64,000 bases of DNA from Craspedostauros australis (Eukaryota > Bacillariophyta > Bacillariophyceae > Mastogloiales > Achnanthaceae): the NCBI GenBank assembly GCA_026770025.1, contig JAMXDE010000052.1, positions 186,001-250,000 on the forward strand. The letters run 5' to 3'. Made by a program: the position numbers and the translations under genes. Position 1 is the first letter of the stretch. Each line of letters opens with the position of its first letter. Positions 45,329-51,929 of the stretch are shown here, one piece after another. The notes under the pieces were generated by a model. It was not told the origin of the DNA. It worked only from the letters and a program-made list of their open reading frames with translations, and did not search any database.

Positions 45329-47436
45329 TCATGCGACGCTGCGGAATGCTGCTCCCCCATTTTGTTTGACGCATGGCCCTGCCTTTTCTGACGCGAGCTG
45401 TTCGCACTTCAAAAACACGATCTCATCGTCGTCATCATCATTGTCATCATCATTTCCGTTATCGTGGTTTTGCTTGTCGTGCCCCTCAGCCTTGCGTGCT
45501 TCGGCAGCTTGCAGGTAGATTCGGGGCACGCCACCTTGCTGCTCGGATAGCTTAAATAGCGCGCTGTTCAATTTCTCGCTTTCTTGCCGCACGCGATCCA
45601 TTAAGACGGACAATGTGGATTGCCTCGCCAGATCCTTGGACAGATCTTCAAAGTACGCACGCGGCAATTGGCAGTACCATTTCGCACTCTTCGCTTCGAC
45701 TTGCAGCAATTGCGTCAGAGCTTCTTTTGCGGAGGCATCCCAAAGCTGTTCCAAATGCGCGACGCAGGCATTGTCCTTGAGGATCCATGATTCGGTGAAC
45801 ATCGCACGATAATCCTGCATCGTCGAGATGCTCTGCAACTTCGTCTTGGCCGCCTCGGCCTGTTTCGCGGCATTGTCGGCACGAAATCGTTCGCTCTCCA
45901 GGCGTGCCATGTCCATCTTGCGCGCCTCTTGCAACTCTTCGCGTTGTGTGACGATCCACATCATGACTTGATCTGACGAGACGGGGTCTGTCGAGATGTC
46001 GTTGGTGAAGTGACGTATGCCGACAAGCATCTCGGACTTGTCGTCAAATCCCATCTGTTGCAGCTCTTGCAATATTTTAATTTCCATTGGATTCTGAGGT
46101 GCATCGTCCGAGTCTCCATTTGCTGCATCAGTAGCGGTGGTGTTTTCAGCAGTGTTAGCTGTGGTGTCGGCTGCAGTAGCGTTTTCAGTGGGAGTGTCTG
46201 TTGTTGCAGTTGCTGCCGGTGCTTGTTCTTCATCTTTTTCTTCTTCTGCTGGTGTCGTCAAACTTGCGGATACTTTTGCTGCTGCTTCTGCCAATCCTGC
46301 TGTCCTTGATCCTGTTGCCGCCGGCGCGGATGTTGCATGCGCTGCGTTCGGAGTTGCATTCCATGGCTGCACTGGGATCTGCGGTACATTACACATGATC
46401 CTTCGTCGTGCTGCATTGCCTGCGTGCGCATATCCGGCCATGGCGGATGCCGGCCGCTTTTTCGAATCCGGTTGCGTATATCCTGCCGTTCTCGCTATGG
46501 GTGGCGTGTAGGGTGGCACGGGGAGGAAGGGTTGACCGGCGGATTGGAAGTTGTACGCATATGGCGGGGCCTGCATTAGCGCATATGCTTGGGCTGCGAG
46601 TGATGGATTGCTGTGATAGGGCGAACTCGCGTGGGGATTTTGATTGTACGTTGGCAAGGATGCAATGGCGTTGCGTGATGCAGCAAGCAAGTCCGGTGAA
46701 TTGAGCGGTTGATTTGCGGGCATGAATGCCGCGTTGCCCGATTGCGGTGTCACGCGTTGAGGCGTCAGTCGTTTGAGCGTGTTCATCAGGTTCGTGTTGA
46801 TGTTCTGTCGAGCAGCGTCAGCGTAAAAGGCGACTTCGAGCTCGGCTACCCGCTGTGCTTTCTTCGTGTACGAGGTTGATTTCCGTATCTGGACGTTCTG
46901 GACGCCAACGCAGAGTGCTTCCAGTCGAGCATGCACGTCTTTTATCTGCTTCACTTTTTGTAGAGTATAGTATAATATGGTACAATGCGGATGCAGGGGT
47001 GATCATTGGATATCATTGGTTATCATTGGTTGCGTTCGGGAAGACCAATTGAAATGGGCAGCAATGCAAGGGTGAGAGGATGTTCGACCAGCCCAAATCG
47101 AGCAGGAGTGCATGGCGTACGATCTGGTTGATGGAATTGTTCCACTCTCATTTCGATCGAACGCATTCCGAGTGCTGGCATCTCCTCATGGACCATCGGC
47201 TGATCTGATTGTGTATTGCATCACATCATGCAATATCATGGATTATATTATATTATAGAATATAACATGAAAATAGCATGCAACGACACCATAAGACACT
47301 CACCAGTCAAGACTGCGCATCCATGTTTCTGCAAGTAAGGCCCAGTGACTTCTCCAGGATACAGACTCGCGATCCAATCGGCTGCCTCCACCGGCAATCT
47401 GTTGCCCTGCGCAGCGGCGGTTCCGGGCGTGCGCAT
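45329..47436 (-). CDS. UBA-like/coiled-coil protein, two exons
   Basis: The large minus-strand frame (45329-46953) has no ATG before an upstream stop. A short exon at 47304-47436 starts with ATG (MRTPGTAAAQGNRL), stays open and ends at a GTGAGT donor in phase 1. It joins in frame to an AG at 46954-46955, giving 585 aa; a second in-phase AG a few codons later is equally possible. After a Pro/Ala-rich middle comes EIKILQELQQMGFDD near residue 335, resembling the UBA helix-1/Met-Gly-Phe loop. A charged coiled coil follows (REELQEARKMDMARLESERF) and the tail ends with an Asp-rich run. Ubiquitin binding is inferred from the Met-Gly-Phe loop only. Product and pathway are unknown. Confidence 0.65.
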
Positions 47437-48335
47437 GGTGTTGCTGGATCCCTCTTTCTATAATACGAGTAATGTGCAGGTGGACCCCGTACGTACGAGC
47501 CAAGAGCGCGGCAGAGTCGATGATATGGAGAGGAGAGTAGAACCCGATGGGAGAATAGAGTAGAATAGATGGGAAGAATGATGCATTTGGTCAAGGGCCG
47601 CGGAGACTGTTCGTGTTCGGGCCTTGTCGTAGCACGTTTCTTGATGTCGTTGCAGTTGTTGCAGCTGTTATCGTTGTTTGTTTTCTCGCGTTGTTTCCGG
47701 AGGTTTGATTCCTTCGACCGTCGTGTTCGATTGAAACCATATCCTGAACATTGAGTCCCATGTGACGTCTCGTCACACATCAACGTGACAAGGGATTCGT
47801 GAATCAAGCAATCGCTGAGCTGCAGCAATTCAAAGACACCGCGTTCATCAATAACACCCACTGTGAATGCAATACGCCGGTCAATGATGGAAGGAACAAG
47901 AGAGATTGAGGCGTATAGTACAATATGGTATGTAAGTTGTTTTGACAAGCTGTGTTCATACTATATCTTGCTACACCATGGTGCTGCCTGGTACCGCCCG
48001 ATTTCTCGTGCAATACCTCCAAACCAAATGAAATCTGGAACGATCGATGTCTCAAGTTGCTGTTTCTTGGCGTCACCCTGCGTGCGAATGTTGTCGTATT
48101 GGGAAAGGGAAGGAAGACCAACATGCACATGGTGCGCGCTTCAACTTGATCCATGTTCAGGCTGCATTATGCCAATCACGAACGATGGCATCAATTTTGC
48201 AACCGTCATTCTGAATCGATCGCTTCAATCATATTCACAGAGGCTTTGTTTTTGCAACGATGACACGCCTGATGGCAACCGCTTGTCACTTGGTATGTCT
48301 GTTTCTGTTCGCGTGTGCAATCTAGATCCGCCACG
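47437..48335. other. Gap: 5' flank of UBA-like gene and 3' UTR region of the DsbA/FrnE gene
   Basis: There is no accepted gene. If the upstream minus-strand gene is a selenoprotein, its SECIS hairpin should lie here, on the minus strand below 48336. I looked for the ATGA...AA...GA core by eye and found no convincing fold. Confidence 0.5.
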
Positions 48336-49847
48336 TTACAGGCCAACGCGATCCTTGATGCGCTCGAAGACGGATAGGAATTGCTGCGTACTTCCGGAAC
48401 CATTCACGGTCAGCTCGCCGCTGCGTTCGCCATCCGTGCGGAATTTGCCGCCATTCGTGTCAGGACCATTAAAGGTGAAGAACGGGATGGAATGGATGTC
48501 GTGTTTGCCAACCGTATCGCGGTAGGATTGCCACACGTCTTCGGTGTACTCGTGGGTGTTGTTGAGCATGTGTTCCACATCCGCCACGTCGAGACCAGCT
48601 TCCGCCGCCGCATCGAGGATGGTGTGTCGGCTGTTGGAGGACATGCCGCGTGTGAAATGACGACGCGACAAGGCATCGGCGTAGGCTTCTTGGGATGCGA
48701 ACTTGGCGGCGTACAGCAGCACGCGCTGCGAATCGACGGGGTACCATGAGAAGTCGACGTGGAAATTGAAAGCAATGTCGACCGTCTTGCCGAGGTTGGA
48801 CAGGCCACGCTTGTAGTCCTGTCCGGCAATCACATCCAGCTCGCTGACCTGCTTGCCGCGCGGTTGGCCCAGTTGTTGTGGAGTGATGAGAGCGACCGCC
48901 TCCTTGAGGTTGTCGGCGGTCCAGCGAACGGGCATGCCTTTGGCCATCGAGATTTGGAGCAGAACTTGCAGGATTGCTTTTGCGCTGGACTTCAGGGCGC
49001 TGCCATCGCCATCATTGGCCTCCAACACGGCGCGGAGGCCACCTGGCGTGCGAAGTTGCCTGACTTGTTGATGCCGAAGTCCCATCTGCATCAGGTACTG
49101 CTCGATCTCATCGCCGGCATAGATGTTGAGATCGTCGTCCCATTTCCAGGTGAGATTATCCTCGCGTGTGGATGGAGATTGCCGTCCTCCACGAAAGGAG
49201 AATGGATGTCGCACCACGTTGACTCGCAGCGCGATATCCTTGTACTTCCCATGGAACGCATCGATTGCCGCAGCAATGTTGCGCTTCCCAATATACCCGT
49301 GTGGTCATTGCGTGCAAGTGACGAAGTCGGCCGTCACCATCAACTCCTTCACGCGGCCGTTGGTTGGATACAAGGATCCGTCCAGTAGATTTTCGACGCT
49401 GCGAGGACCGTCCCTGACGATGGCAGCTGAGGTGTCGTCGACATTGGTGGATGCATCGAAGATTGGGCGCAGATCCTGCAACGAGATGGACAGCGTCGTG
49501 TAAGGTTCCTTGAGCTGGCTGGCCAGCTTGGGGAGGCGGCATACGAACAGACCGCTCGCGATGGCCGTTGCTTCATCGCCATCGTTGTTGACGCAGGTCA
49601 TATCGTCCGCAGTTGTGGATGGACGAATGACATGTACAATGGTTTGAGATGGATTGGGATGCTTGGGGAGCAAGTCGGAGATGGTCTGTGTGCTCGCACC
49701 GATCACCTTCGCAGGCATACCTGCCTTCATGTTGATTTGATGTTGAAGCTGCTTGCCTGCGGCGGTGCTCATCGTCATCAGGGTTGTCGTTGCTGCTGCT
49801 GCTACGGTTGCTACCTTGGACAAGGACGAGAAGTTGGGCAGCCTCAT
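48336..49847 (-). CDS. DsbA/FrnE-like thioredoxin-fold protein with in-frame TGA (candidate selenoprotein)
   Basis: Reading from the first ATG (49847), one frame runs to TAA at 48336-48338 with a single TGA at codon 181, giving 503 residues if TGA is Sec. The TGA falls in MVTADFVTCTQ-[TGA]-PHGYIGKRN, the exact place of the CxxC motif after the first beta strand in DsbA/FrnE proteins, making a C-x-x-U motif. Downstream the family pattern continues: VVRHPFSFRGG, DSQRVLLYAAKFASQEAYAD, RRHFTRGMSSNS, DAAAEAGLDVADVEHML, and the cis-Pro strand HSIPFFTFNGP. Residues 1-165 form an extra N-terminal region with a hydrophobic start and no domain I recognise. The activity would be thiol-disulfide exchange. 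Alternatives are a sequencing error or a nonsense allele. The selenoprotein W gene 1.6 kb away on the same strand shows the genome decodes Sec. Confidence 0.75.
49305..49307 (-). other. In-frame TGA, candidate selenocysteine codon
   Basis: TGA follows TGC ACG CAA (C-T-Q). The reading frame and the DsbA/FrnE homology continue unbroken on both sides, and only a few codons separate the flanking motifs, too few for an intron. Confidence 0.7.
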
Positions 49848-51426
49848 TTGGCTCGCAGACACTGTCACGATCGATTGCCTTTTGTTCCTTGGGCTTTTCG
49901 CTCCAAGAGATTTATGACATGAAATCAAAGCGTCGCTCTGTGTGTGCGTCTTCTACTCTGTTGTATCGCTTTCAACGCGATGATTTGGGGGTGCGGTGCT
50001 TGTGTTTGGAATGCCTCGTTGCACTGCTTGTTGTTACAGAAGCCACGCTCGCTGGACGAGCTATCGTAGCGGTGCGGAGAAGGAAGTGGAGCAAGAGACT
50101 TCGAAAGAAGAGAGCGAGAGAGAGACGCGGCGTCTCTCGGGCTGGATGAGGCACGTTTCCCCAATGTGTGTACTCGTCCTCGTACAAGTGTGGATAGGAT
50201 GTAGAGGAAGTTGGGCACTTCTCTGTTTGTCCTCCTCTGACGAGTACAGCTGCAGGTGATGACGGAAAGTAGGACTTTGGATGAGAAGAGAGGCGGTCCC
50301 ACGTTCACGCCATCGTCCCGATGATGCACGCACGTGCCCGTACTTAGTGATGGAAGTCGATTCCTCCTTGTTGTGAGATTGACTTCAAGCGATGTGATCG
50401 CGATGTTGCATCCCAGTCACCATTTTGGTGTCAAAAGTGGTCTCGGAATGGTCTCGATTTGGTCTCAAAGTGGTCTCAGAATGGTCTCAGAATGGTCTCA
50501 AAGTGGTCTCAGAATGGTCTCGATGTGGTCCCGAAGTGGTCCCAAAGTGGTCTCGCGAAATTCTACTTTCTTTTGTATCGAATCTCCTTTGCCAACGTTT
50601 CCGATACGATGACGTCATGCCATCACAGACCTGACAACAAAGAACAGAATAGAACGGTGCAGATCCACCACGCTCCATACCTGCAACGTTGACAACCAAG
50701 GCAACCTTGATCTGGTGCGACTATCACCCGACTCGAAATAGAGTGATAGATCTCGACGGTACTCTGTCAAGCATCATGAGTATCGGAGAGAACGAGCATT
50801 GTTCTGTTGTGATTGAGTTTGGTGTACTGGGCAGGATTATCCTCCTCGTACTATATTTAATTGAATTGAAGATTGACTCCAACTGCTGTGCTCGTTGAGT
50901 CGATGTAAGAGGTGGATGTTGCATTGCGAAATCTGATACTGCTCCATCGGTAACACCCACGGCCTTTCGAGCATACATTTGCATACCGTGACATGGGACC
51001 GCAATTCGTTCATTTATCTCGTGCAGAGATGAACAACCATTTTATTGTCAGATCGAGCAGTGAAGTGAAGAAGTAGATGACATCCAAGCAAGTGCTTGCT
51101 GGGACCTCGCCATCTTCTCCACGCCGCTCCATCGTCATTCCAAACGGTCGCAAATGACGAGCATCAATTGTTGTCTCAAAGCAAATCCCCTCTCTCACCT
51201 GTGATCGTCAAGCGTTGTTTGGAGTGTTCGTGGTACATATTATATGTGCAGTCGCTGCAGTCTGCGTTCGATATCAGTGCGTATGGTTGCATCGATCGTC
51301 CTTGATTTGTCTCGTTCTTTTTGCTTGTTGCATGGTTTGTGTTCATTGCCACGGAAGGAAGGAAAGATAGCATAGCAAAGTCAGCCCTGTCTCTTGCTGC
51401 GGATGCGATCCAACGCCGATCACATT
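49848..51426. other. Gap between the DsbA/FrnE-like gene and the SelW stop
   Basis: No gene was recognised. It contains the 11-bp minisatellite at 50425-50556. The last few hundred bases before 51427 should be the 3' UTR of selenoprotein W and are where a SECIS is expected; none was convincing by eye. Confidence 0.5.
50425..50556 (+). repeat. 11-bp minisatellite, ~12 units (tggtctcagaa-like)
   Basis: Consecutive units of tggtctcNNNN (ggaa, gatt, aaag, agaa, gatg and similar), two with tggtcccNNNN. The unit length is constant at 11 bp apart from one 12-bp first unit. It lies in a gene-poor gap. Confidence 0.9.
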
Positions 51427-51929
51427 TTACATGTCATCTATGTATTCTTGGATCTGATCCACGATGAGCTGGCGTTCCTTTGGTGTTTGTGCACGGCCTT
51501 GACCACCACGCATCTTGGAATGAATGAGCACAGCATCCTGACCGTCCGGTGGATGGATGGTGATTTCGAAGTTTCCAGTGATGCCACGATCTTCCTTGCC
51601 AATCACCTTGATTTTGTTGGCGATGTGAAGCTGCTTCAAGAGGAAGTCCTTCAATGCTCGAAAGTATCTCCCGTAGCCTGAACGATGTTTGCATCAAGTG
51701 CGTGTGATGCCGTGGCATGTGCGTGTCGGTTCGAAAAGAAAGGGGATATCATGAGTGACAATGAATGATGCAAGTCAGGGACAACTCCTCAATACGAGGT
51801 TGCTCTCGCAATGACGGCCTGCCGCGCCAGAGCATCCTGTCATTGCAGCTCCAGCAAACACGAATGCGGAGCGCCATGATACGCACCTCACCCGCCACAG
51901 TACCGAACTTGAACGATGATCTTGCCCAT
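51427..51929 (-). CDS. SelW: Selenoprotein W (Rdx family), two exons with Sec
   Basis: Exon 1 is 51887-51929 and exon 2 is 51427-51677; the 209 nt phase-1 intron starts GTGCGT and ends TTCAG. The product is 97 aa: MGKIIVQVRYCGG-U-GYGRYFRALKD, then GITGNFEITIH, LIHSKMRGGQGRAQTP, and a C-terminal helix. Selenocysteine is codon 14 (TGA, 51888-51890), forming the C-x-x-U redox motif of SelW after the first beta strand. The intron begins one base into the next codon (Gly). The length and the LIHSK signature match the SelW/Rdx family. These are small thioredoxin-like-fold proteins, thought to take part in glutathione/thioredoxin-linked redox reactions. The TGA makes the gene easy to miss, since a normal reading ends after 13 residues. 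The SECIS was not identified by eye. Confidence 0.92.
51888..51890 (-). other. Selenocysteine codon (TGA) of SelW
   Basis: The TGA sits between TGT GGC GGG and a split glycine codon, giving C-G-G-U-G, the SelW active-site motif. Confidence 0.9.

Follow-up and report, generated by a model that had tools for sequence, protein, structure and literature searches.

The window, a stretch of 64,000 nucleotides from the diatom Craspedostauros australis (contig JAMXDE010000052.1, positions 186,001 to 250,000), carries on its minus strand a gene predicted to encode a selenoprotein of the DsbA/FrnE type, called the DsbA gene below (Table 1). Its frame has 503 codons, and codon 181, a TGA, is the sole internal stop between the ATG and the TAA. 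A preliminary description of this DNA had reported one uninterrupted frame on both sides of a single TGA, together with the motifs MVTADFVTC, YIGKRN and SIPFF. Both observations hold: there is no other stop, the two parts are coding by codon usage, and all three motifs are present.

The selenoprotein W (SelW) gene, which that description had placed nearby on the same strand, lies upstream of the DsbA gene at a distance of about 1.6 kb, and the two predicted selenoprotein genes are neighbours. Its product begins with MGKIIVQVRYCGGUG (TGA at 51890..51888) and it has a SECIS-type element of its own. A Pfam Rdx search of the whole genome missed this gene, probably because its exon 1 has only about 14 codons; it was then confirmed by reading the sequence. 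A short tandem-like array of GAGACCA-type units (around 50440-50580) lies in the spacer that precedes the DsbA gene. Elsewhere in the window, at about 22.2-30.7 kb and 26.6-36.2 kb, the same six-frame peptide contexts return after about 8.1-8.2 kb (22333/30451, 26595/34778 and 27302/35485 are examples), which suggests a tandem or local duplication.

Table 1. Features of the DsbA gene, the SelW gene and their 3' elements in the window.
Feature	Position	Strand	Basis or remarks
DsbA/FrnE-type selenoprotein coding frame (predicted)	48336..49847	(-)	503 codons, one in-frame TGA; ATG 49847, TAA 48338..48336
N-terminal ~165 residues	49353..49847	(-)	hydrophobic stretch from ~residue 12, signal-like by eye
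First stretch with FrnE similarity: residues 172-218, with strand 1, the active site and the YIGKR helix	49194..49334	(-)	FrnE profile
Cys178, three residues before the Sec; Asp there in FrnE proteins	49314..49316	(-)	alignment
TGA codon 181, Sec very likely at the nucleophilic (first) position of CxxC	49305..49307	(-)	profile, phmmer, paralogue alignment
Gly184, where the resolving cysteine would be expected	49296..49298	(-)	alignment
Region of ~residues 234-340, with insertion of ~70-100 residues	48828..49148	(-)	alignment
Second stretch with FrnE similarity: residues 345-461, reaching beyond the cis-Pro motif SIPFF	48465..48815	(-)	FrnE profile, Pfam
SECIS-type element of the DsbA gene	48148..48217	(-)	motif comparison and fold
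DsbA-gene element: helix I	48217..48212/48153..48148	(-)	
DsbA-gene element: GAATGAC	ending at 48205	(-)	
DsbA-gene element: helix II	48204..48198/48166..48160	(-)	
DsbA-gene element: TGA	48159..48157	(-)	plus A-rich bulge and apical hairpin
SelW gene, two exons	51427..51929	(-)	ATG 51929, TAA 51429..51427; second exon read by eye
SelW SECIS-type element	51048..51138	(-)	GAATGAC-type motif, one helix mismatch

Codon usage was modelled on 46 other loci of the genome, each represented by its longest open frame. By this measure the frame of the DsbA gene has 0.29 bits per codon over the 180 codons before the TGA and 0.32 bits per codon over the 322 after it. All five alternative frames score lower on both sides, and the signal is absent from every frame of the 5' flank and of the 3' region. 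The GC3 values of the two parts of the frame are 0.68 and 0.69, and the chance that 322 codons stay open, on base composition alone, is about 1e-5. The in-frame TGA has coding sequence on either side, as is expected of a eukaryotic selenoprotein gene. At the sensitivity used, the gene is single-copy in the genome (assembly of 74.8 Mb in 90 contigs).

The similarity to DsbA and FrnE noted in the preliminary description is borne out by profile searches. The Pfam family PF01323 (DSBA) matches residues 293-443, after the TGA (43.1 bits for a curated cut-off of 25.6, E 5e-11), and the FrnE profile, with Sec written as X, runs across the TGA (residues 172-218) and also matches residues 345-461 (37.3 bits). 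P455, in the presumed cis-Pro loop, is invariant in 53 sequences. The insertion of about 70-100 residues, whose limits vary with the alignment, is missing from the aligned FrnE proteins. The N-terminal part of ~165 residues is as unexplained as the description had it (Pfam gives no match to residues 1-162 at E values up to 10); its hydrophobic start possibly indicates a location in the secretory pathway. NCBIfam gives no match for the protein.

Three PF01323 genes were found in the genome, the DsbA gene included, each with an in-frame TGA. The TGA of the other two, referred to here as the paralogues, takes the place of the first Cys codon, which gives the motifs UPFC (C47, L001) and UPWC (C22, L002). 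No relative of the whole protein was found in genome_contigs or viral_contigs, and a search with the three-paralogue alignment found none in viral_contigs. The collections searched yielded no close relative of the protein and none that keeps the TGA at codon 181. The branches of a FrnE-core tree are long; the two paralogues group together at a support of 0.64 and the DsbA-type selenoprotein is unplaced. The UPWC protein (L002, C22:574007) has a hydrophobic leader and then AFLP-like residues, which we take as a possible plastid-targeting presequence of a secondary plastid.

The genome contains a tRNA-Sec with the anticodon TCA (76.6 bits for a cut-off of 47), a SecS gene and an SPS gene which itself has an in-frame TGA and reads KGUACK. 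These three components of the Sec machinery support the working Sec system for which the preliminary description had cited the SelW gene. In-frame TGA codons also stand within recognizable Sec motifs in a SelT-like Rdx protein (CISU), in two of the three glutathione peroxidases, in two Sep15/SelM proteins, in a PDI-like protein, of which there is also a degenerate copy, and in one of 12 MsrA matches (GUFW). Four of 43 thioredoxin matches contain an in-frame TGA. Two of these four are the PDI-like selenoprotein (UGYC; L059, C6:906548) and its copy, while the other two are unexplained. The copy, L061 (C6:1872832), is a close duplicate of L059 with an extra in-frame TAG, its SECIS-type element still being there, and looks degenerate. 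TGA is not generally a sense codon in this genome.

A SECIS within ~1.5 kb of the stop codon had been expected from the preliminary description, and a SECIS-type element, recognized by a lineage motif and by its fold, is indeed found: its ATGAC begins at 48209, about 127 nt beyond the stop. The motif derives from a pattern common to the selenoprotein 3' regions of the genome, which consists of GAATGAC, directly followed by 7-10 pairs of helix whose two strands are separated by a loop of 14-63 bases, and then by NGA. The final rule (GAATGAC, a helix of 7 or more pairs in which a single mismatch is tolerated, and NGA, no farther than 1000 nt from the stop) was tuned across successive scans that contained the DsbA gene itself. 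It is satisfied in 9 of 12 selenoprotein 3' regions, those of the DsbA gene, SelW, SPS, L054, L055, L056, L059, L063 and L064, the match of L063 (+890) being uncertain, as is the last exon of this locus. The motif is missing within 1000 nt of the stop in L057, L058 and L062, which are both GPx and one Sep15/SelM. Two loci stand outside these 12: L060, which has no match, and L061, the degenerate PDI-like copy, which scored 14. The 3' region of SPS gave no match with the TGA form and fitted once the last triplet was relaxed to NGA.

In a background of 43 other loci and both window strands (409,854 strand-bases), made up of loci fetched for other purposes and the window rather than of a random sample, the motif occurs only at the DsbA gene and SelW. 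Among 2000 simulated 3' regions of the DsbA gene, six had any match and one reached the score of the gene. A looser motif (any ATGA, any GA) matches 12 times across 128 kb of window strand; the specificity therefore comes from the AATGAC context. An early scan that required AA in the apical loop returned mixed candidates at the loci of known selenoproteins, and the GAATGAC motif took its place. With a stricter scoring and a free quartet, 3 of 10 regions reached a score of at least 18, and the DsbA gene was not among them.

The minimum-energy fold of the element shows helix I, a GAAUGA/UGAA internal loop, helix II, an A-rich bulge and a small apical hairpin. This is the order of the textbook SECIS, in which, however, helix II is longer and the A-rich bulge is farther from the core. 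The fold energy is unremarkable (z of -0.54; 55 of 200 shuffles are equally good). Rfam detects no SECIS at the gathering level in the window and none genome-wide, and the four hits that it gives for 46300..49310 at E values up to 10 include no SECIS either. This silence says little about the window, since RF00031 also misses the other selenoprotein elements of the genome. The SECIS-type element of the 3' untranslated region is recognized by the lineage motif, RF00031 being negative, and this pattern, undetected by the Rfam model, could serve to find the remaining selenoprotein genes of the lineage.

The presence of a TGA that interrupts a coding frame, of a SECIS-type hairpin and of the Sec machinery genes leads us to infer that UGA 181 is almost certainly read as selenocysteine. 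If the TGA were an ordinary stop, the gene would be a copy in decay or cut short, unless the codon itself were a sequencing error. This might be suspected from the failure to find a relative which keeps the codon-181 TGA in the collections searched, but the 503 codons are otherwise undisrupted, with a coding signal that is intact past the TGA, the SECIS-type element sits where it is expected, and the TGA falls exactly at a catalytic Cys codon, as it does in both paralogues. An ordinary stop is therefore very unlikely. The locus might also give two products, a 180-residue protein ending at the TGA and a separate downstream protein starting from an internal Met. There is an in-frame Met after the TGA, the first being at residue 253, and the N-terminal part has no recognized domain, but a start at 253 would leave out the active site together with strand 1 and helix 1, which makes such an arrangement hardly credible. 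That TGA encodes an ordinary amino acid in this organism, by a variant genetic code, is a possibility so slight as to be negligible: several genes do have an in-frame TGA, but the ordinary members of the same families are mostly without it, as the thioredoxin (4/43) and MsrA (1/12) counts illustrate, and tRNA-Sec(TCA) is present.

With UGA 181 read as Sec, the active site of the protein would be C-T-Q-U-P-H-G. The preliminary description had put the TGA at the second redox position of the CxxC motif, with a Pro-His-Gly insertion after the U. The alignments point to the first position instead. The comparison was made with a profile of 76 bacterial FrnE proteins, which are the best 80 of at least 571 relatives found in genome_contigs with the three-paralogue alignment, minus four loci for which frame extension yielded 12-38 residues only. 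With residue 181 as X, this profile aligns without a gap, UPHG over CPWC, and the alignment is the same when residues 178 and 181 are both masked: of the two cysteines of CPWC, residue 181 meets the first and Gly184 the second, and residue 178 falls on the Asp at -3. When Sec is written as Cys, phmmer pairs UPHGYIGKR with the CPWCYIGKR of the FrnE structures 5cp1/5cnw, and the alignment with the UPFC and UPWC paralogues also has the Sec in the column of the first Cys. Alone, the first FrnE stretch scores weakly (7.3 bits with the masked profile and 5.7 bits with phmmer). The TGA is aligned to the catalytic Cys of the homologues, as in other selenoprotein genes, and the Pro which follows it is invariant in the 53-sequence alignment.

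The position at -3 is an Asp in 76/76 bacterial FrnE proteins, a count that is partly built in, as one of the two search patterns admitted only D or C there; it is also an Asp in both paralogues and in the PDB FrnE. The DsbA-type selenoprotein has only three cysteines, at positions 85, 103 and 178, and none after the Sec. The two redox residues of canonical DsbA/FrnE proteins, [CU]-x-x-C, are not both found, since Gly184 occupies the second position. The Pro-His dipeptide is the same as in E. coli DsbA, whose active site is CPHC.

In the arrangement put forward by the preliminary description, Cys178 would be the nucleophile and Sec181 the second, resolving residue, Pro-His-Gly being inserted before YIGKR. 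The C-T-Q-U spacing does fit the motif of other thioredoxin-fold selenoproteins, and DFV stands before Cys178, but a gap of three residues is needed where the masked 76-protein profile puts the Sec over the first Cys with none. The phmmer comparison with the FrnE structures and the paralogue alignment agree on the first position, and an invariant Pro follows the Sec. A Sec at the second position of the motif, as in CxxU proteins of the Rdx type, is not what these alignments give. Because the profile, phmmer and paralogue alignments all place residue 181 on the first Cys, both the second-position assignment and the insertion lose their support, and this arrangement is unlikely. The Sec is very likely at the first, nucleophilic position, and the gene as a whole quite probably encodes a thioredoxin-fold selenoprotein of the DsbA/FrnE type with an altered active site and the Sec as the nucleophile.

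A mechanism can be proposed for such a site. UGA 181 would be read by tRNA-Sec, and the Sec would stand where helix 1 begins, in place of the nucleophilic cysteine, and act as the nucleophile. It would attack a disulfide, or become oxidized, and the resulting bond would then need to be released. Since the residue at +3 is Gly184, release requires another thiol. This may be Cys178 at -3, the thiol nearest to the Sec in sequence, standing in the place of the Asp, which would form a C-T-Q-U selenosulfide, or an outside thiol such as glutathione. The chances of Cys178 and of an outside thiol are about even. A role as a thiol-disulfide reductase or isomerase is favoured. It is tentatively suggested, at somewhat less than even chances, that the redox pair is reversed: the Sec would have kept the seat of the nucleophile, the +3 cysteine would have been lost and its role moved to the Cys at -3, giving a CxxU independent of the Rdx type. 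The genome shows how Sec may let the site of an oxidoreductase change, with two paralogues that are U-x-x-C and a third protein without a resolving Cys and with a Cys on the other side.

The preliminary description had presented the gene as a candidate new selenoprotein. A selenoprotein is supported by the above, but novelty as a family was overstated, since Sec-containing DsbA/FrnE proteins have been reported in algae, bacteria and invertebrates, according to PMC7539508, PMC6627142, PMC2398784, PMC2874816 and PMC3473315. They are counted among the algal selenoproteins with the widest distribution (PMC7539508), and Sec-FrnE is reported in Mamiellophyceae and Mesostigma viride (PMC6627142). The algal proteins are likewise Sec-containing members of the family from eukaryotic algae; the passages on them in these two papers mention neither a Gly at the resolving place with a Cys at -3 nor a long N-terminal region. 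In searches of open papers, no DsbA active site of the C-T-Q-U-P-H-G type was found described, and one paper ties UxxG to families other than DsbA.

Sec-DsbA has been reported in invertebrates (PMC2874816, PMC3473315). In the Ciona and amphioxus proteins, as presented in PMC2874816, the Sec is likewise at the upstream Cys of CxxC, but the site is U-x-x-C, unlike the UPHG found here. A DsbA with only the upstream Cys is still able to catalyse thiol-disulfide exchange, as cited in that paper. The DsbA selenoproteins of marine metagenomes are UxxC and rarely UxxV (PMC2398784). The UxxV form, GOS DsbA 3, is a PF01323 protein with Sec in which the resolving Cys is also missing, but it is prokaryotic and no Cys at -3 is listed for it in the passages on it in that study. 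Prokaryotic DsbA selenoproteins are elsewhere classified as UxxC or DxxUP (PMC13188914); the DxxUP proteins (DsbA-like form 2), also PF01323 with Sec, have the same spacing with an Asp where Cys178 stands, and the passages on them in that paper list no Cys at -3.

The FrnE structures 5cnw/5cp1 align with the DsbA-type selenoprotein at the start of the YIGKR helix and in the cis-Pro region. The similarity is weak (E 0.0014), and they differ in having CPWC instead of UPHG and a 260-residue chain without the extension. Like the DsbA gene, the UPFC and UPWC paralogues have a TGA at the same alignment column and a GAATGAC-type 3' element, but unlike it they still have a resolving Cys as well as an Asp at -3, and the DsbA-type selenoprotein is 15% and 20% identical to them. 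The DsbA gene is very likely a real selenoprotein gene of an already known family, within which UPHG with a Cys at -3 would be an unusual active site.
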